A stretch of 44,548 nt of DNA from Pseudomonadales bacterium. GTDB lineage: Bacteria > Pseudomonadota > Gammaproteobacteria > Pseudomonadales > JAHRWD01. Location of the stretch: assembly GCA_029210125.1 (NCBI GenBank), contig JARGPR010000015.1, positions 8,323 to 52,870 of the forward strand, written 5' to 3'. The notes under the pieces are model-generated. The model did no database searches, was not told where the DNA came from, and saw only the letters and a list, made by a program, of their open reading frames with translations. Below, one piece after another: positions 19,975 through 44,548 of the stretch. Each line of letters starts with the position of its first letter. Position 1 is the first letter of the stretch. Position numbers and translations under genes: made by a program.

Positions 19975-20098
19975 AGGTCTCCCGGGCTTTTATCCCTCCG
20001 TGTAACCCCCCTTGCTTGTTAGATAAAGCTGAGGAGGTCGATAACTCTCGGACCAGTCACCGCTATAGGAAAGCGGCCGGAACCCTAGTCATCTATTG
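19975..20098 (-). promoter_or_regulatory. Guanidine-I riboswitch (ykkC-yxkD motif)
   Basis: On the minus strand the conserved blocks of the ykkC class I guanidine aptamer appear in order. CTAGGGTTCCGG is at 20088-20077, CTGGTCCGAGAG at 20056-20045, then ACACGGAGGGATAAAAGCCC followed by GGGAGA at 20003-19978. These are the most conserved bases of the class. The aptamer ends about 50 bases before the ribosome-binding site of the binding-protein gene. No strong U-tract terminator follows. A CTCCTC inside the aptamer (20038-20033) could pair with GAGGAG of the ribosome-binding site, so control may be translational; this last point is inference. Confidence 0.93.
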
Positions 20099-20337
20099 GG
20101 TTTGTATTGCATATCCCCTGTTAATGAAACTGAGGATCTCTGGCACTGACCTTTGTTTAGCAGATTCAGTGCCAACTAATATTTATGTTTTAATTCAAAT
20201 AGTTACAAAAATTTTTAGACGATCACGTTTCTCTAGCGCACCAATAAGCCGCACAGTGGCGCACCACAAGAAAGCAGCTTATCTGCTTATGAATACGAGC
20301 TATGCAAATACATACAGCCTTTTGACAAAGGCTACAG

Positions 20338-37084: not shown

Positions 37085-37351
37085 ATGAGACAGTCCAGAT
37101 TCACGGATGGCCAAATACTGGCCATCATTAAACAGAACGAAGAAGGCGTATCGGTCGCTGACTTGTGCCGCGAACACGGCATGAGCCAGGGCCTGTTCTA
37201 TAAATGGCGCGCCAAGTTCGGCGGCATGGACGCATCTATGATGAAGCGACTTAAGGAGCTTGAGGAGGAGAACAAGCGCCTCAAGAAGATGTATGCTGAG
37301 GAACGCTTGAAGGCTGAGATCCGACAGGAGGCCCTTGAGGGAAAGTTGTAA
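37085..37351 (+). CDS. IS3-family OrfA (transposase DNA-binding subunit)
   Basis: This 88-residue protein has a helix-turn-helix of the HTH_8/InsE type ([36 protein letters not shown]). A leucine-zipper coiled coil ([20 protein letters not shown]) follows. It binds the element's ends. AGGAG precedes the ATG. The stop at 37349-37351 overlaps the open -1 frame that leads into OrfB, consistent with production of an OrfAB fusion by ribosomal frameshifting. Confidence 0.93.
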
Positions 37352-37371
37352 AGCCGTCTCAGCGCAAGGAG

Positions 37372-38169
37372 ATGGCCACGTTTGCAATTGCGCGCCATGG
37401 CATCAGCATCCGGTTTGCGTGTCAGTGCCTGAGTGTCAGCGAGTCCTGCTACTACTATGACCCTAAGTTCTCATCAGAGAACGCGGAGATCGCCGATTGG
37501 CTGCTTAGGCTAACGGCAACACACAAACGCTGGGGCTTCAGGCTGTGCTTTCTGTACCTGCGCAATGTGAAAGGCTACGGCTGGAATCATAAGCGCGTTT
37601 ATAGGATATATCGGGAGCTAGAGCTAAATCTGCGGATCAAGCCAAAGCGGCGAATCAAACGCGACAAGCCTGATGCTTTGAGTGTGCCAGCGGCTGTCAA
37701 TCAAGTCTGGTCGATTGATTTCATGAGTGATTCGCTAGCAGATGGGCGGTTGTTACGGACATTCAATGTGCTTGACGACTACAACCGGGAAGGGCTTGGC
37801 ATTGAAGTTGATTTGTCACTGCCAAGCCTGCGAGTTATCCGGAGTCTGGAGCAGATTATCGAATGGCGCGGTAAGCCGAGCGCTATTCGCCTAGATAATG
37901 GTCCGGAATATATTTCTCAATCGCTTGTGGGCTGGGCAAATAACAACCGAATTACGCTCATGTATATTCAGCCAGGCAAGCCAACGCAGAATGCTTACAT
38001 TGAGCGCTACAACAGGACAGTGCGTCATGAATGGCTGGACATGCACGCTTTTGAATCGGTTGATCAGGCACAGCACCTCGCGACAGAATGGTTATGGCTC
38101 TACAATAACGAAAGACCCAACTCAGCTATTGGCGGAGTACCGCCGAGACGACTGCTAGAGGCAGCATGA
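37372..38169 (+). CDS. IS3-family OrfB transposase (DDE integrase core)
   Basis: This 265-residue protein has the retroviral-integrase-like catalytic domain: first Asp in WSIDFMSD, second in [10 protein letters not shown], and Glu in NAYIERYNR, giving DDE with the IS3 spacing. An N-terminal HTH_21 segment ([26 protein letters not shown]) precedes it. The frame is open upstream of the ATG through VVKPSQRKE, so the active protein is probably the OrfAB fusion. No disabling mutation is visible. Confidence 0.93.
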
Positions 38170-38318: not shown

Positions 38319-38774
38319 CTATTTACAGGCACCGATGTACTTTCCCTTAAAAGTACTTTTCATTTTTACAGCGCCAAATTGTCCGCCAGGCATATCCATC
38401 GCCAGGGAACCAGAGGCGGTGGTTCCTTTAAGATAAATTTCTCCTTTTCCCGAAGAGGGGCCCTCTGGCGTATTACAGCTAAGGTCAACAAGAATTTCCC
38501 CAGCATTTACTCGCGTATATTTAACATCACAATTACTATCAGCATTGAGCATAGTGTCCACATCCATTACGCACCTAGTTTCCGTATGGGTATTGTTACT
38601 CATGTTTGCCATAAACTGGGCAACTTCCGGCGGCACACCAGTTATTTTTGTCGTCGCAGTGCTCTCCCATAGACCAGGTTTGAAATTGTAGTCACCCGCC
38701 AAGGCTATTGTTGATGATACCGAAAGGCAGATAACCCCAGTAAATGTGTATAAATGTTTCATTGATTTATTCAT
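38319..38774 (-). CDS. DUF3617 family exported protein
   Basis: This 151-residue protein has an N-terminal signal peptide (KHLYTFTGVICLSVSSTIALA). The DUF3617 core begins KPGLWESTATTKITG and continues with VAQFMANMS, CVMDVDTML and NCDVKYTRVNAG. The family is common in Proteobacteria, is probably periplasmic and has no known function. Paired Cys residues could form disulfides. It starts 28 bases after the NYN gene's stop codon with no attC-like structure between them, so both may sit in one cassette, or this gene may be chromosomal flank. Confidence 0.88.
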   Translation of the reverse strand: MNKSMKHLYTFTGVICLSVSSTIALAGDYNFKPGLWESTATTKITGVPPEVAQFMANMSNNTHTETRCVMDVDTMLNADSNCDVKYTRVNAGEILVDLSCNTPEGPSSGKGEIYLKGTTASGSLAMDMPGGQFGAVKMKSTFKGKYIGACK

Positions 38775-38801
38775 AGTGGCATAGTTTAAACTTCTGACAA
38801 C

Positions 38802-39536
38802 TTATTTGCGCGCATCTTTGATGTACATTGCTGAACCATCATTTCTCATCTCAACTTCAAATAACTCACTGGCCCTTATTAGGTCACCCAATTTTTTGTA
38901 GCCGTAATTTATAGATGAGAAAGAACTGTTGTTAGAGATGTAGTGTCCTACTCTGCTCATATGAGCCCAGCCATCATCCTCTGACGTTTGCTCTACAGCA
39001 GTCCTAAGTAACTTAACTAGTAAAGTATCCTTCCGTAGCTCACTTTTAGTCTTCTTTTTGCTCGCTGATTGTTGAGGTTTGTCGTTTTTTTCTTCTTGCT
39101 CAACAACGAGATTCTCCGTGTATATAAATGGAGAGCATGCATCTACGAATGGTTGAGGAGTTTTCTTTTCACCAAAACCATAAACAGGCAAGCCGCTTTC
39201 GAGTATTCTTAGTACAAGAGGCGTAAAATCGCTGTCGCTTGTCATTAGTGCAAAGGCATCGACACTTTTACTATAAAGCAAGTCCATAGCATCAATAATC
39301 ATTGCGGAATCAGTAGCATTCTTCCCTTTTGTATAGGCGAACTGCTGCATCGGCCTTATTGCGTGGGGATGTAATCTATCTATCCAGCCTGACAAGGAAG
39401 GATTTTTCCAGTCGCCATGTGCATGGCGAACATTGACCATGCCGTATTTGGCAAGCTCTTCTAGTACCCCTTCTATTGAGTTATGGCTAACATTATCACA
39501 ATCAATTAGAAGCGCTATTCTTTTCCTTTCCGACAC
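38802..39536 (-). CDS. NYN domain ribonuclease-like protein with OST-HTH/LOTUS domain
   Basis: This 244-residue protein starts with a LabA-like NYN domain. LLIDCDNVS carries D12 and D14; D76 and the pair D101 and D103 in TSDSDFTPLV complete the acidic pocket that binds a metal in PIN/NYN nucleases. A charged linker (about 150-170) follows, then an OST-HTH (LOTUS) RNA-binding domain ending the protein (YGYKKLGDLIRASELFEVE). RNA cleavage is likely but untested. The GTG start is preceded by AGGAG at a normal distance. An attC-like half-site lies directly upstream. Confidence 0.9.
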   Translation of the reverse strand: MSERKRIALLIDCDNVSHNSIEGVLEELAKYGMVNVRHAHGDWKNPSLSGWIDRLHPHAIRPMQQFAYTKGKNATDSAMIIDAMDLLYSKSVDAFALMTSDSDFTPLVLRILESGLPVYGFGEKKTPQPFVDACSPFIYTENLVVEQEEKNDKPQQSASKKKTKSELRKDTLLVKLLRTAVEQTSEDDGWAHMSRVGHYISNNSSFSSINYGYKKLGDLIRASELFEVEMRNDGSAMYIKDARK

Positions 39537-39550
39537 TAATTTCTCCTGAG

Positions 39551-39594
39551 TTTATAACGGCGGCCTTCAAGGGGCAGTCGCGCTAGCGACTGCA
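39551..39594 (-). other. attC-like site, 3' half
   Basis: On the minus strand a hairpin CAGTCGC-GCTA-GCGACTG (39575-39592 plus strand) is followed by CTTGAAG and then GTTATAA. This is the order hairpin, L-box, R-box of an integron attC 3' half, ending just before the NYN ribosome-binding site. The matching 5' half is missing, replaced by an IS remnant that starts one base further on. The identification rests on arrangement and is less certain than for the site at 43797-43888. Confidence 0.5.
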
Positions 39595-39639
39595 TGATCT
39601 TGCCCCAATAAAACGGACATATGAAATTTCATGCGGCTA
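39595..39639 (-). mobile_element. Terminal remnant of an IS3-family element
   Basis: These 45 bases match the left end of the IS3-family element at 41789-43057 with only four differences: TGATCTT, CCCC, ATAAAACGGACA, CATGCGGCTA. Only the end with the last codons of orfB remains. On the minus strand its TAG supplies the stop codon of the ferritin-like gene, so it marks the point where that gene was cut. Confidence 0.88.
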
Positions 39640-39924
39640 CTTGTGAGCAATTGGTTTTTCTGTGAATAGGTAATCTTTAAGCTCTTTATCAAAACTAGGG
39701 TCTTTTCTCCTAATCCATTCAAGGACCATTGCAGCGTGTTCTTTTTCTTCATCGCGATTGTGTGTAAGTATCGCTTTTAATTCTTCATCTTTACATGCAT
39801 CAACTCTTTGGTTATACCAATCTACCGCTTCAAGTTCTTCCATTAGAGATGTGATTGCTCTATGCATATCTCTAGTTTCGTTAGTAATCTCTTCTATTGG
39901 TTCGTGATAGCCTTCATTTGACAT
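39637..39924 (-). CDS. Encapsulated ferritin (EncFtn)-like protein, targeting tail missing
   Basis: This 95-residue protein closely resembles EncFtn: MHRAITSLMEELEAVDWYNQ, HNRDEEKEHAAMVLEWIRR, and YLFTEKPI. EncFtn assembles as a ring of dimers whose interfaces hold an iron ferroxidase site. The equivalents of the known ligands (E32, E62 and H65 in the Rhodospirillum protein) are E30, E60 and H63 here. Family members continue about 20-30 residues past YLFTEGPI into a short peptide that docks inside an encapsulin shell. Here the protein stops at PIAHK because an IS remnant provides the stop codon. No encapsulin gene is in the window. Confidence 0.88.
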   Translation of the reverse strand: MSNEGYHEPIEEITNETRDMHRAITSLMEELEAVDWYNQRVDACKDEELKAILTHNRDEEKEHAAMVLEWIRRKDPSFDKELKDYLFTEKPIAHK

Positions 39925-39957
39925 AAATTGTTCCTCATTGATGGTATTATTTTATAA

Positions 39958-39969
39958 TGCATAACGAGG
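39958..39969 (-). other. Possible attC 3' end before the EncFtn gene
   Basis: The minus strand reads GCCTCGTTATGC, close to the cassette-junction R-box (GTT followed by mostly purines and a pyrimidine), at the usual 30-40 bases before a cassette gene. The rest of the site is not recognisable. This is a weak call made because of the neighbouring attC-like sites. Confidence 0.3.
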
Positions 39970-40117
39970 CTGTAGACTAATATAACTGAGGAAAGCAATA
40001 GTAAGTCCTGGTCAGACTGGCTAATTTCCCTTCCCCCCTGTATTTATACATTAAAACAGCCTTTCTTTTTATTCGATGGCTTCAATCATGCCTGAATCTT
40101 GGTTCTGTGACCATATC

Positions 40118-40440
40118 TAGGCTATCTGACCATACCGTCGTATTTTATCAATATTGTGTACCATGCAGTACATTAACTACTGTGCATTCACTTTGGATTT
40201 ACCCCTTAAGCTAAACCTGCTGAGCGGCCTGGTTGTATTAATTTTGCCAAAAACCGGCTCAATCGTGCCCAGTCGTCTGCTGTAAATATGTCTGCCCTGA
40301 TCATTATCGAATGTTGCTTTCATTCTATCGATACTACTTAGCCGTGCTTTAGTGTTTCTTGTAGCTTGGTCAATACCTGTGGAGTACAAACATTGTTGGC
40401 GTCGTTCGGACTTGATACTAAGCCTTTTAATATCATACAA
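40118..40440 (-). pseudogene. IS1182-like transposase, C-terminal fragment
   Basis: The frame reads MKATFDNDQGRHIYSRRLGT, then IEPVFGKINTTRPLSRFSLRGKSKVNAQ, a stop, and LMYCMVHNIDKIRRYG before a second stop at 40118-40120. This is the C-terminal part of an IS1182-type DDE transposase, where RLGTVEPVF and the LRG-KVNAQW run are characteristic; the stop replaces the Trp codon. Its apparent start overlaps the end of the permease gene, so the relic probably lies where an insertion entered or deleted the cassette's 3' end. Confidence 0.75.
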
Positions 40441-41728
40441 CCCTTGGCTTTATCTCTCTTTTTGTTGTTTTCTGCAATACAACTTCTGTAATTGAAGCTG
40501 TCGAGATAAACGCAACAAGAATATACAAAACATCACCTGAGCTCTTACCAACATAAACAAGAGCAAGCACCATAGCGATAGCACTCAGCATAGCGGCAAT
40601 AAAAACTAAAGCTAGAGAAGCGCCTGTTTCAGATATAATTTTCATATGGCCAATATGAGTGATTGTATGAACAAACAAAATGGATATTGACCCAATTGCA
40701 GCTATTTCAGATAAATCAAATAGCAAAGATAAAACCACAATTAGGATACCACTAATAACTAAGCCTTCTCTGCTATGTCCAATGGGTTTTCCGAATTCAG
40801 CAGGCAGCTCACCATCTTTAGCTAATTGGTAAGTCACATTTGTAACCGCATACAAATTAGCATTAATAGCTGATGCCGTTGCAACTAACGCCGTAATCGC
40901 CACGACAGTAAAGCCAATTCGACCAAATATGGGTAATGCTGCTTCTGCTAAGGCAAAATCTTTTGCCTCAATGATTTTTGAGACTGGCAAATTACCAAAA
41001 ACAGCAAATGCGATAGCAACATAAAGTACCATGACTAATAAAATAGCTGTCATCATTGCCCTAGGGAGTGTTGCAGCAGGATTAGGCATATCTTCTGCCG
41101 TATTAGTGATAACACGAAAACCTTCAAAAGCAAAAAAGGTAATCGCCAGACTAAAGAATATGTTGTTACTTGGAGGGTAATAGCTGGGAGACAATAATTC
41201 TGGTTTTATAAAAATGATCCCTGTTATGGACAAACCTGTTAGTACAGCGAATTTGACTCCAACCGTAATTTTTTCCCATACAGCAACATCTTTTGCTCCT
41301 TTAAGGTTAATCAAAACAAATAAAAAAATGATTCCGATTGAGAAAAAGTGATGCCATATGTGTGATGCTGCGTTGGGAGGTAAAAATGTGACCGCATAAT
41401 TACCAAATGCTTTGGCAACCAAACTCAAGGAAACAATGGCAGAAAAATAGAGCATAATCCCCATCGTACCGGTAAAAAAACCAGTTCCATAGGATTGAGA
41501 TAAATACTCAATGATGCCCCCGGAAGAAGGGTAACGAGCCCCTAATTTACCCAATGAATAGCCGCTGAATAGAGCTATCATTCCACCAAGAATGAATGAA
41601 ATATATACTGCACTTCCAGAAATAGCGCTTGCTTCACCGATCAGAGCAAAAATCCCCGCCCCAACCATTGCACCTACCCCCATTGAAACAGCCGACCAAA
41701 ATCCAATTGGTTTTTTTGATGTATGCAT
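40433..41728 (-). CDS. APC superfamily amino acid permease
   Basis: This 431-residue integral membrane protein has about 12 helices. The N-terminal consensus of the APC family is clear: SMGVGAMVGAGIFALIGEA in helix 1, then GSAVYISFILGGMIALFSGY. The helix-6 region FFAFEGFRVITNTAEDMPNP is a second APC hallmark. It would move amino acids or related amines across the inner membrane; the substrate cannot be predicted. GAGGAG lies just upstream of the ATG, and a half attC-like site precedes that. The 3' end abuts an IS1182 relic. A 1.3-kb gene is large but possible for an integron cassette. Confidence 0.9.
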   Translation of the reverse strand: MHTSKKPIGFWSAVSMGVGAMVGAGIFALIGEASAISGSAVYISFILGGMIALFSGYSLGKLGARYPSSGGIIEYLSQSYGTGFFTGTMGIMLYFSAIVSLSLVAKAFGNYAVTFLPPNAASHIWHHFFSIGIIFLFVLINLKGAKDVAVWEKITVGVKFAVLTGLSITGIIFIKPELLSPSYYPPSNNIFFSLAITFFAFEGFRVITNTAEDMPNPAATLPRAMMTAILLVMVLYVAIAFAVFGNLPVSKIIEAKDFALAEAALPIFGRIGFTVVAITALVATASAINANLYAVTNVTYQLAKDGELPAEFGKPIGHSREGLVISGILIVVLSLLFDLSEIAAIGSISILFVHTITHIGHMKIISETGASLALVFIAAMLSAIAMVLALVYVGKSSGDVLYILVAFISTASITEVVLQKTTKREIKPRVV

Positions 41729-41750
41729 ATAGCTCCTCAGTTACTTATAA

Positions 41751-41788
41751 GGCTAACGTTGCAAATGGAGCTCGACGGAATTTGCATC
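41751..41788 (-). other. attC-like site, 3' half (interrupted by IS)
   Basis: The minus strand reads GCAAATTCCGTCGAGCTCCATTTGC, an imperfect hairpin, then AACGTTAGCC. GTTAGCC fits the cassette R-box and lies 23 bases before the permease start. The IS3-family element begins exactly at the other end of this stretch, and a complementary CCCTAAC half lies beyond the element. Confidence 0.6.
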
Positions 41789-41822
41789 TGATCTTCCCCC
41801 GATAAAACGGACACATGAACTT

Positions 41823-42710
41823 TCATGCGGCTAATCTCTCATATTCCATTGGCGAACAATAACCAATCCCTGAATGCAGCCGCTTTCGATTGTAAAAATC
41901 ATTAATATAACGAGCTAAAGCATACTTCAGCTCTTCGCGCGATTGAAAGTGAGTTCCTCGGATTAATTCTGCCTTTAAGGTATGGAAGAAGGATTCCATA
42001 TGCGCATTGTCGGTACATTTACCGGGGCGGCTCAAGCTATGCAAGATGCCATGTCGCTTAAGGTCCTTCTGGTATTCTGCCCCTCGGTATTCAACACCTC
42101 TGTCGGTATGCAGCATAAGCCCTTTCTCCGGCTTTCTTTTCTTGATCGCCGTTGCCAATGTTCGCCTGGTCACTTCCGTCGTTCTCTTTGTATCCAGGCT
42201 CCAACCCACAATGCGGCGAGAGTGAAGATCCATCACCACTGACAAGTCATGCCACTTATTTTTCACGTTGAGATAGGTCAGATCGGCAACCCACACTTTA
42301 TTCTTTGCACCGGGCACCGCACCATCCGATCTCAGGTTTTCGCCAGAGGAAAGAAAACGTCTCATACCGGGTGCTCGATAGGTTACTCGGGTGACACGTG
42401 CGATGAGTCCCATCTCCTGCATCAAACGGGCTACGCGCTTTCTGCTGACCGCAATCCCTTGATGCTGTAGCGCCTTCCAAATTCTTGGGCTGCCATAGCG
42501 TCCCTCGACGCGGTCATACACTTTCTGGATCTCAATCTTTAAGGCTACATTTTCAGAAGCACGACTCGAATCTACACGCTTGCGCCAGTCGTAATAACCA
42601 CTTCGAGACACACCAAGCCAGGCGCACAGTGATTGGATACCCATATCTAATCCGAATCTTTCGATGAATCGATACCTTGCTGATGTGCCTCCGCAAGATA
42701 CCGTTGCCAC
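41823..42710 (-). CDS. IS3-family OrfB transposase (IS150-like)
   Basis: This 295-residue DDE transposase has an HTH_21 segment (GRYGSPRIWKALQHQGIAVS, RVARLMQEMGL). The catalytic core has Asp in VWVADLTYLNV, Asp in MLHTDRGVEY and Glu in NAHMESFFHTLK, giving an intact DDE triad. It begins at a GTG inside the AAAAAAG slippery site (42716-42710), so the functional protein is the OrfAB fusion made by -1 frameshifting. The last codons (ERLAA) are the sequence found in the 39595-39639 relic. Confidence 0.93.
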   Translation of the reverse strand: MATVSCGGTSARYRFIERFGLDMGIQSLCAWLGVSRSGYYDWRKRVDSSRASENVALKIEIQKVYDRVEGRYGSPRIWKALQHQGIAVSRKRVARLMQEMGLIARVTRVTYRAPGMRRFLSSGENLRSDGAVPGAKNKVWVADLTYLNVKNKWHDLSVVMDLHSRRIVGWSLDTKRTTEVTRRTLATAIKKRKPEKGLMLHTDRGVEYRGAEYQKDLKRHGILHSLSRPGKCTDNAHMESFFHTLKAELIRGTHFQSREELKYALARYINDFYNRKRLHSGIGYCSPMEYERLAA

Positions 42711-43018
42711 TTTTTTAGTAGCTCGACCTCTTGTTTCAGTTTTCGATTCTCGGCTTCTAGTCGCTTAACCTTCAACAGTTCTTTGGCTTGTTTAGAGGAT
42801 ACATCCGTTATTTTTTTACGTTTATCTGCCACGATCTTGCCCTCGCGATACTCTTTTCGCCATCGTGACAGCATGAAGGGATGTATGTCGAGCGTATCAG
42901 CCACCTCTTTAACCTGAACACCATCGATCAGGCTTAACTGAACCGCTTTAACTTTGAACTCATTGGAGTACTGCCAGGTCTTTCTGGGTTTTGTGTATTT
43001 CGGCATGGGACACCTCAT
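42647..43018 (-). CDS. IS3-family OrfA (IS150-like)
   Basis: This 123-residue protein has an N-terminal HTH_Tnp_1 fold (YSNEFKVKAVQLSLIDGVQV, VADTLDIHPFMLSRWRKEY). A long coiled coil (VKRLEAENRKLKQEVELLKK) follows. The A6G frameshift heptamer falls in the ELLKK codons, and beyond it the OrfA-only product ends with an unrelated tail (WQRYLAEAHQQG). It supplies the DNA-binding part of the OrfAB transposase. The start at M5 (MPKYTKPRK) is an alternative. Confidence 0.92.
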   Translation of the reverse strand: MRCPMPKYTKPRKTWQYSNEFKVKAVQLSLIDGVQVKEVADTLDIHPFMLSRWRKEYREGKIVADKRKKITDVSSKQAKELLKVKRLEAENRKLKQEVELLKKWQRYLAEAHQQGIDSSKDSD

Positions 43019-43057
43019 CTGCTAGATATAGGTGTCCGTTAAAGCGGGGGAAGATCA

Positions 43058-43086
43058 GCTGTCGCTGTGCTTGGCCTTGTTAGGGC
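43058..43086 (-). other. attC-like site, 5' half (interrupted by IS)
   Basis: The minus strand reads GCCCTAACAAGGCCAAGCAC and AGCGACAGC up to the IS end. CCCTAAC fits the 5' R-box consensus, and its TAA is the stop codon of the preceding gene, a usual trait of integron cassettes. The partner half is at 41751-41788 across the IS. Confidence 0.65.
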
Positions 43087-43781
43087 TCATTTGCTTCCTC
43101 AACACGGCGGGCTAGCAATGATGCGAAAATTAGATATTGAGCCGCTTTTTCATCGGTTAAATCATGCCTAAGACTATGAGCTTTTGGATTACGAATGCCT
43201 ATGTATGCGCCTTGGAATATTTGCAGAAATCCAGATTGGTCGTTTCTACCTGAGTCAGAGTCTAACTCGCTCAATATTAGCTTAGGATCTTGAACAGAGA
43301 AAACTTGACCTGCCAGTTTAGCCCCGTCCAAATCTAAACCAGTGCGCTCTCTTATGAGGTCAAACACCGAAACAAACGCATTTAACACCGCATCTCTTAG
43401 GTGCCCAGAACGATACTGATGAAAAGCATGTTCAAATACCACAGGATGCAATAAGTCTTCAAAGCCGATTTCATTGTGCTGATGTTGATTTTCTAAAAGA
43501 TGTTGTTCTGCTTTTGCTTCAGCACTCGGTAGGTCGTGATTTAGAATATCGTTATAGTCGTGAGCCTCACCAAACCCTATATGCCGCCCAAGATATCCAA
43601 GTTCTTTTGGATCAAAATGCTCCTCCCAAACTCTCCGTAGACTTGCATAATCAGTTTTCAGGTAACCATTGACAACCTTCGCAGCACCTTCGTCACCATT
43701 TTGCAACGCAGATGCAGCATCCAGCGATTTCTTTCTGATTTCGCGGAATAATCTATTTACTTCTAAATACCATTTGATCAT
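43080..43781 (-). CDS. TIGR02391 (Ymh-like) family protein
   Basis: This is a 233-residue soluble protein. The C-terminal half (about 113-231) matches the TIGR02391/Ymh domain: HPVVFEHAFHQYRSGHLRDA, RERTGLDLDGAKLAGQVFS, FQGAYIGIRNPKAHSLRHD and a final LASLLARRVEEA-like helix. The conserved NPxAH and FxGA motifs are present. Related proteins appear in abortive-infection-like and mobile contexts, and some are suspected of RNA or nucleotide targeting, without proof. The stop codon lies inside an attC 5' box, and a full attC-like site lies immediately upstream, so this is a single-gene cassette. Confidence 0.8.
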   Translation of the reverse strand: MIKWYLEVNRLFREIRKKSLDAASALQNGDEGAAKVVNGYLKTDYASLRRVWEEHFDPKELGYLGRHIGFGEAHDYNDILNHDLPSAEAKAEQHLLENQHQHNEIGFEDLLHPVVFEHAFHQYRSGHLRDAVLNAFVSVFDLIRERTGLDLDGAKLAGQVFSVQDPKLILSELDSDSGRNDQSGFLQIFQGAYIGIRNPKAHSLRHDLTDEKAAQYLIFASLLARRVEEANEP

Positions 43782-43796
43782 TGAGGCTTACCTTTA

Positions 43797-43888
43797 GCCT
43801 CAACGCCTCAATAACCGGCAGCGTTGTGGCGGAGCCACGCTTTTAGCTGTCCGGCGCCGAAGGCGCGTAGTTGATTGATTTGTTAGGT
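43797..43888 (-). other. attC-like recombination site, complete
   Basis: This 92-base imperfect palindrome starts on the minus strand with ACCTAAC and ends GTTGAGGC. Inner boxes TCAATCAAC and GGTTATTGA pair as the second arm. The middle folds into two hairpins (GCGCC-TTC-GGCGC and GTGGC-TCC-GCCAC). This is the R-L-hairpin-L-R layout of integron attC sites. It separates the methyltransferase stop (43843, inside the site) from the TIGR02391 start (43781). The 3' R-box has one extra G relative to a perfect complement. Confidence 0.78.
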
Positions 43889-44484
43889 TTTTGTGCAACA
43901 ACTTGGATTATATGCCAATTATGAGTGACACCTTGAGGTGTTTTACCTTTCGATTTATGTGTTTTAAAACGAAGGACTTCATAATTTTTTAAAAGTTCTT
44001 TAACTTCAGAATCTTCGAAAGCCGTTACCTCTGGCCAGAAAACGCTTGAGTTTTCGCCTGGTACGGCCATGGTATCTTCCTTACCTAAAAACGAGCCACA
44101 AAAAAGACCATTTGGAAGTAGGCACTCATATATCTTCGACCATACCTTATTAAACTCGGAGCTGGGACAAAAAAATAAGCTTGCATCAGCAACTACGAGC
44201 GAAGCTTGAGGGTAATCGAATGTAGAAAATGATGATTTAGATACAATCACATTATCTAAGCCTTTAAAACGAGATTCACATCTTGATATTGATTCTTGCT
44301 CGATATCGAATCCATAAACTATGAATCCATTATTTGATAAGTACTCAATATCAGCTCCCGCACCACAACCACAATCGATAGCAACTTTGGGTTCGCTGAC
44401 CATGCTTGCAGAAAATAGTAGATCTTCACGAATCTCACGAGATTCAGTTGCATCAAAGTATTTGGCGATTTCTTTGCTAGACAT
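43843..44484 (-). CDS. Class I SAM-dependent methyltransferase, cassette gene
   Basis: This is a 213-residue methyltransferase. Motif I is VAIDCGCGAGADIEYL (34-49), the acidic strand-2 end is FDIE, and SLVVADASLFFCPSSEF is motif IV. It fits the Methyltransf_25/tellurite-resistance TehB-like groups; the substrate is unknown. The start is ATG 44484 (MSSKEIAK), because a longer ORF to 44520 would translate the attC junction. The 3' end runs into the attC site at 43797-43888, as usual for a cassette. Confidence 0.87.
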   Translation of the reverse strand: MSSKEIAKYFDATESREIREDLLFSASMVSEPKVAIDCGCGAGADIEYLSNNGFIVYGFDIEQESISRCESRFKGLDNVIVSKSSFSTFDYPQASLVVADASLFFCPSSEFNKVWSKIYECLLPNGLFCGSFLGKEDTMAVPGENSSVFWPEVTAFEDSEVKELLKNYEVLRFKTHKSKGKTPQGVTHNWHIIQVVAQKPNKSINYAPSAPDS

Positions 44485-44492
44485 GATTGGAA

Positions 44493-44548
44493 ACCTAACG
44501 GCCCGGCGTTGAGGTGCCAACTGGAGTGTTATACCTGTTTTTTTAGGT
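44493..44548 (-). other. attC-like site, 3' part at window edge
   Basis: The minus strand reads TTGGCACCTCAACGCCGGGC then CGTTAGGT, nine bases before the methyltransferase start. GTTAGGT is an exact cassette R-box, and CCTCAACGCC occupies the L-box position. The 5' half lies past the window end. The next cassette, or attI and intI, should be there. Confidence 0.62.

Follow-up and report, generated by a model that had tools for sequence, protein, structure and literature searches.

An IS1111-attC group of insertion sequences (ISs), typified by ISKpn4 and ISPst6, was reportedly described by Tetu and Holmes in 2008 and by Post and Hall in 2009. In the papers that we cite here by PMC number, IS1111-type elements are said to target gene-cassette attC sites at one end (PMC11187229); IS1397 and ISKpn1, members of the IS3 family, target repetitive extragenic palindromic (REP) sequences, the choice of target reportedly residing in the transposase (PMC1525189); the IS1202 family (ISAjo2, ISAba71) inserts next to pdif, 5 bp away on the XerC side (PMC10132070); and group IIC introns insert at attC (PMC7923331, and a reference title in PMC9229058). 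Recombination between IS3 copies in the Vibrio cholerae integron rearranges its array (PMC11023631), and IS3 copies in Vibrio arrays are mentioned with no reference to attC specificity (PMC11023631, PMC1382264). Among the open-licence PMC papers listed in our literature searches we recognized none on an attC-specific element of the IS3 family, a scope that leaves ISfinder and most subscription papers outside, such that an earlier report is possible. Here we analyze an IS3-family element lying within a gene-cassette array in a 44,548-nucleotide (nt) stretch from a Pseudomonadales bacterium (GCA_029210125.1). This stretch, hereafter the window, is C24:8323-52870 in a genome of 3.13 Mb and 31 contigs, and its right end is the contig end. 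The original prediction, which had recognized the array, treated the IS as incidental; we find it to be the most informative part of the window. Sequence comparisons show that attC sequence of this array is split by the element and that copies of its clade keep a fixed position and orientation beside attC halves in many bacteria, and they make it probable that its transposase selects attC.

The IS3-family element and its position beside attC

The IS3 family is defined by an A6G frameshift run and TG...CA ends. Both are seen in the window element, with the A6G slippery run at 42710-42716, as are OrfA and OrfB with a DDE (rve) domain. The element and its flanking attC sequences are:

41789..43057, minus strand: IS3-family insertion sequence, 1269 bp, with TGATCTT...AAGATCA ends
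42647..43018, minus strand: OrfA of the IS (HTH_Tnp_1, E 1e-15)
41823..42710, minus strand: OrfB of the IS, DDE transposase (NF033516, 306 bits, cut-off 160; rve, E 1.8e-24)
43058..43085, minus strand: attC 5' half (R''-L''), TAACAA 25 nt from the IS end
41751..41788, minus strand: attC 3' half with hairpin and R', likely from another attC site than the half at 43058-43085

The 5' end of the IS lies just past the L'' box and the transposase reads in the cassette direction. A scan of genome contigs gave 48 IS loci, and an order-wide scan of 390 genomes gave 39 with a match at E <= 1e-60 (88% to 39% identical), from which at most 30 loci were taken; the sample also included 20 further stretches and ten plasmid loci with related IS3 elements. 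The junction analysis covered 102 sources, omitting seven duplicate loci and the second copy of the pKAZ2 region. Among them, 59 have a recognizable 5' end and at least 40 nt of flank, which after subtraction of two duplicates gives 57 insertion sites, all with different flanks; the remaining sources have no 5' end matching the consensus patterns or no flank.

TAACAA, the R'' side of attC, stands 23-25 nt before the IS 5' end in 43 of these 57 sites, and no more than 27 nt before it in 45, against a control frequency of 321 in 122,413 positions of the same loci (0.26%). The other 12 comprise two outgroup elements (L149, L151), seven degenerate half-sites at 23-24 nt (L086, L118, L120, L122, L132, L133 and L136; p 0.0018 to 0.021), one site with TAACAA at 35 nt (L124) and two with none (L055, L107), of which L055 nonetheless has attC matches on both sides. 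Half-sites in reverse orientation were found in 0 of 66 3' flanks. Sorted by transposase identity, the exact half-site is present in 5/5 insertions at 85% or more, 9/12 at 70-85%, 14/15 at 60-70%, 12/14 at 50-60% and 5/10 at 43-50%. The L'' part of the targets scores 6.33 against -1.06 at 125 other occurrences of TAACAA, the former value not being leave-one-out and hence flattered. Independently of the junctions, a covariance model of attC (R1), built from five attC sites of the genome that holds the window, matched another intact attC in 26 of the 45 IS loci to which it was applied (all but three of the 48), and 48 of the 48 attC matches there are oriented such that the transposase is codirectional with the cassettes.

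Half-site junctions occur in Cellvibrionaceae, Saccharospirillaceae, a Microbulbifer, Colwelliaceae and an IncC plasmid. This fixed position and single direction beside attC in many bacteria imply that the clade likely homes on integrons. Viral contigs gave no match to the IS; plasmids gave 57 records at E <= 1e-60, all below 60% identity, with the half-site in one of the ten loci examined. That locus, on the IncC plasmid pKAZ2 (L147; KR827391.1, 87746-89490), has a related IS (45%) preceded by a gene for a PhnO-type acetyltransferase; TAACAA stands at 23 nt and the duplication is ACC.

The tree, built from 52 transposases (of 54 chosen, two were not long enough; partial copies were omitted, as were twelve identical ones from Colwellia), contains a clade of 42 rows with support of 100/100, of which 38 are in attC, and two of the four exceptions (L118, L136) have degenerate half-sites. 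The labels of L114, L123, L140 and L146 were assigned by eye, several rows have long branches, and the placement of L146 is unsure. All 10 rows of the outgroup carry the label 'other'; for L150, L152 and L157 the IS ends are insecure. None of the nine outgroup insertions that have an end scores as a half-site. TAACAA within 150-700 bp upstream of OrfB is absent from all 13 examined loci of IS3 relatives outside the clade (the 10 outgroup rows plus L090, L145 and L153). These relatives, together with the fixed distance and single orientation in 43/57 sites against 0.26%, make it very improbable that the IS inserts without preference and that arrays are merely a tolerant landing ground, even though several IS families have been reported in arrays, in Shewanella mostly within coding regions (PMC9229058).

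The genome of Colwellia psychrerythraea GAB14E has 13 contig-end copies, identical over 1269 bp, which all abut attC halves: TAACAA lies at 23-26 nt in 7/7 of the 5' ends, and 6/6 of the 3' ends are followed by a hairpin and by a box that reads GCGTT or CCGTT, with CGTTA in five of them. As contigs break at the IS, these copies represent at least seven insertions, and because identical elements adjoin different attC halves the half-site is not part of the element. A short 3-bp target duplication, a further IS3 trait, is exact in 15 of 43 copies that have both flanks, well above chance (shuffling gave 1.7 on average and at most 6 in 2000), the window copy being without one. The location of the element inside attC and its cassette direction would also fit movement as a cassette by the integron integrase instead of by its own transposase. 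However, the integrase cuts in R', and the junction is placed elsewhere, some 20 nt inside R''; this position, the TG...CA ends and the 3-bp duplications leave the option hardly credible.

Proposed recognition of the half-site and the probable chimeric site in the window

Most likely, the IS would recognize the R''-L'' half in its linear form. In the mechanism that we propose, OrfAB would be made by -1 frameshifting at A6G and would dock on the linear, double-stranded R''-L'' half (TAACAAG, about 11 nt, GGA), whereupon a circular intermediate would be pasted in beside this half. The inner portion of the inverted repeats, GGACAC, resembles the GGAC of L'', and in 23 of 45 targets GGA occupies position -6 or -7, which suggests that one DNA-binding surface may read both the IS inverted repeats and L''. 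With its insertion point between L'' and the variable hairpin, the IS would spare all four integrase boxes, and an attC with the IS as a large apical loop could still recombine.

Alternatively, the transposase could recognize the folded attC hairpin and not linear R''-L'', as IS1397 and ISKpn1 enter REP palindromes, a targeting by IS3-family elements that is documented (PMC1525189). The attC sites do fold, and in eight empty sites that we rebuilt, picked from the 43 because both arms are visible, the insertion point is apical to the paired L boxes in six (L051, L102, L104, L138, L139, L147), partly apical in L108 and not apical in L119; moreover, a deleted copy on contig C2 of this genome occupies an unrelated hairpin, in its loop, and shows a repeat of 4 nt (by eye). 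Yet L049, L075, L135 and L137 have a 3-bp duplication but no R' downstream, as does L136 with its degenerate half-site, which suggests that the half-site alone is sufficient, the pairing test behind this having little power (L''-L' pairing against swapped flanks gives p <= 0.05 in 1 of 37 attC-flanked copies). We regard hairpin recognition as unlikely, albeit with an appreciable chance, and retain the reading of the linear half-site.

Several observations count against attC selection as set out above: 1) L055 and L107 have no half-site and the TAACAA of L124 is displaced. 2) L123 and L140-142 are inserted deeper in attC. 3) The deleted C2 copy sits in another hairpin. 4) Exact 3-bp duplications are missing in 28 of 43 copies (two of these have 4 bp). 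5) R' is found within 115 nt in 7/13 copies with a target duplication versus 7/24 without (Fisher p 0.17). 6) Most copies come from one order, so that the sites are not fully independent.

The original prediction had a single attC split by the IS. The IS does interrupt attC sequence; the halves flanking it show no target duplication and no visible common stem (pairing test p = 0.51, with little power), and are likely parts of two different attC sites. Unrelated halves without a duplication are as expected from recombination between two IS copies, an adjacent deletion being another possible origin. Co-oriented copies at equivalent positions would recombine so as to delete whole cassettes and leave a chimeric attC like that of the window. 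A search of the genome with the IS gave five more fragments, from four remnants: the one in the window beside an attC 3' half, one at C5:25937-25974 with TAACAA in its flank at a distance of 24 nt from the IS, two pieces of the internally deleted copy on C2 (half-site score p 0.036) and an internal piece without ends on C8. Taken further, these features would picture the IS3 clade as a specialized integron parasite that reads R''-L'', spares the four boxes, rides in cassettes moved by the integrase, and through recombination of its copies shuffles cassettes without the integrase; this wider picture is tentative, and we hold it to be rather less likely than not to be right in all its parts.

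The cassette array, the integrase on C5 and the terminal repeat

The cassette array in the window is real, with cassettes in one orientation separated by attC, represented by one complete site and halves in the window and four sites on contig C5. Besides the IS and its flanking halves, the window has:

38319..38774, minus strand: DUF3617 gene, no adjoining attC (PF12276, E 6.9e-12)
38802..39536, minus strand: NYN / OST-HTH gene, cassette (PF01936, E 4.2e-36; PF12872, E 5.7e-14)
39550..39594, minus strand: attC 3' half (hairpin, L', R') beside an IS remnant
39595..39639, minus strand: remnant of the 3' end of the 41789-43057 IS, 45 bp (91% identity over 44 nt)
39637..39924, minus strand: EncFtn-like ferritin gene, cassette (PF22277, E 2.6e-45; 95 aa)
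40177..40440, minus strand: IS1182-type transposase fragment replacing the attC of the permease (PF13751, E 7.7e-9)
40433..41728, minus strand: amino-acid permease gene, 3' side cut by the IS1182-type fragment (PF13520, E 2.6e-34)
43080..43781, minus strand: TIGR02391 / Hypoth_Ymh gene, cassette (PF09509, E 8.1e-34; TIGR02391)
43796..43889, minus strand: complete attC in cassette orientation (89.5 bits, E 3e-25, model R1; boxes; fold)
43843..44485, minus strand: methyltransferase gene, cassette (PF13649, E 9.7e-10); start set at ATG 44485, the open reading frame (ORF) finder starting at TTG 44520
44496..44548, plus strand: start of a palindromic repeat of about 142 bp just inside an attC R' box; the contig ends in it

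The predicted single-strand run was borne out, the cassette genes all being on the minus strand, and domain searches agree with the gene types that had been named (EncFtn-like, NYN/OST-HTH, TIGR02391, permease, methyltransferase). The complete attC, originally put at 43797-43888, is placed at 43796-43889; it has attC sequence and, in a folding check, an attC fold, which forms on the strand opposite the genes; as this site is one of the five members of the model, its independent support comes from the attC boxes and the fold. An array of at least five genes separated by attC had been proposed: the five cassette genes stand, and only one of the four separators is complete. Among the two or three partial sites claimed, the half between the EncFtn and NYN genes holds, and the permease/EncFtn separator was replaced by the IS1182-type fragment, with only an unsupported remnant near 39959-39990 left. 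At the DUF3617 end no attC was found in the 27 bp between this gene and the NYN gene, leaving its cassette status unsupported.

The EncFtn-like ferritin sits as a gene cassette (39637-39924), and no encapsulin match was found in the genome. A shortening of this protein by the IS was rejected, as most of 120 relatives among the matches listed have 95 aa. To the left of the DUF3617 gene lies a second, different IS3-family element (37085-38169, plus strand), and a guanidine-I riboswitch is found at 19977-20099 on the minus strand (91.6 bits).

The original prediction placed intI beyond position 44548, where the contig ends. The integrase and cassette arrangement that it foresaw is found on C5: near the left end is a predicted integron integrase (TIGR02249, 436.8 bits against a cut-off of 265; nearest in structure comparison IntI4, 2a3v, E 4e-94), whose gene is divergent from minus-strand cassettes with four attC sites; a candidate attI junction, GTTATAC at about L009:1990-2000, was read by eye only. 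Two of the C5 attC sites share the type of the window site (99.8 and 92.8 bits versus 89.5). The orientation fits C24 running into C5, and the join is an unproven candidate, neither proved nor excluded by the attC model applied to this genome, by the distribution of MscS and lnt across 12 genomes (MscS in 8, lnt in 12) or by the locus in a same-genus genome. In the latter, lnt and slt stand at the equivalent position, and the 9 kb examined there contain no attC match and no further gene common to C24 or C5. In the integrase-adjacent cassette (L009, 1770-1997) there is a 75-aa ORF opposing the other cassettes, with no Pfam match.

In contrast to being the distal part of the C5 integron, the window array could be a separate attC cluster without its own integrase (CALIN). 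The attC model has further matches on C18, C27, C2 and C20, and C27, C9 and C30 end in the same repeat as C24, which makes neighbors of C24 other than C5 possible. The shared attC type and the fitting orientation favor the connection to C5, and we give a separate cluster a serious but somewhat less than even chance. On C18, far away from the integrase, 102400-104500 (L160) combines small genes with an attC match of 30.8 bits and a copy of the palindromic repeat, and is possibly an attC cluster without integrase.

The palindrome at 44496-44548 is the start of the repeat of about 142 bp, which is found in 11 places in the genome (including the window; L172 at 8539, 9286 and 10618; and L173-L179). 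In the C27 array the repeat directly follows the TAACG of an attC R', and it may be a small non-autonomous element also entering attC. It occurs in 4 of 56 genomes, namely this one and three relatives with single 3-mismatch matches.

Comparison with known systems

Two split or halved attC sites in the window gave no match with the covariance model, and as such sites are missed arrays may be under-counted; the motif TAACAA - about 18 nt - TGATCTT would provide a simple junction marker. The proposed targeting, if true, raises the questions of whether a DDE transposase can read an integrase half-site, whether an attC with a 1.3-kb loop recombines, and whether cassettes are deleted or shuffled, independently of the integrase, through exchange between copies in the same orientation. 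The copies reported in the V. cholerae integron point in opposite directions and are found within a cassette gene and within the last cassette. Group IIC introns likewise insert at attC, but are retroelements. The IS1202 family similarly keeps a fixed distance and orientation beside a tyrosine-recombinase site, although it is another IS family with another target and a 5-bp duplication. IS1397 and ISKpn1 belong, by description, to the same IS family as the window element, but their target is the REP palindrome and not attC. The IS1111-attC group shares the targeting of attC; its members have an RNA-guided DEDD transposase of the IS110 type, whereas the element described here has a two-ORF DDE transposase of the IS3 family and 3-bp duplications, and family scans gave only IS3-type and related DDE families and no IS110-type transposase. 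If our proposal is true, a second class of insertion sequences, unrelated in mechanism, has made attC its home.

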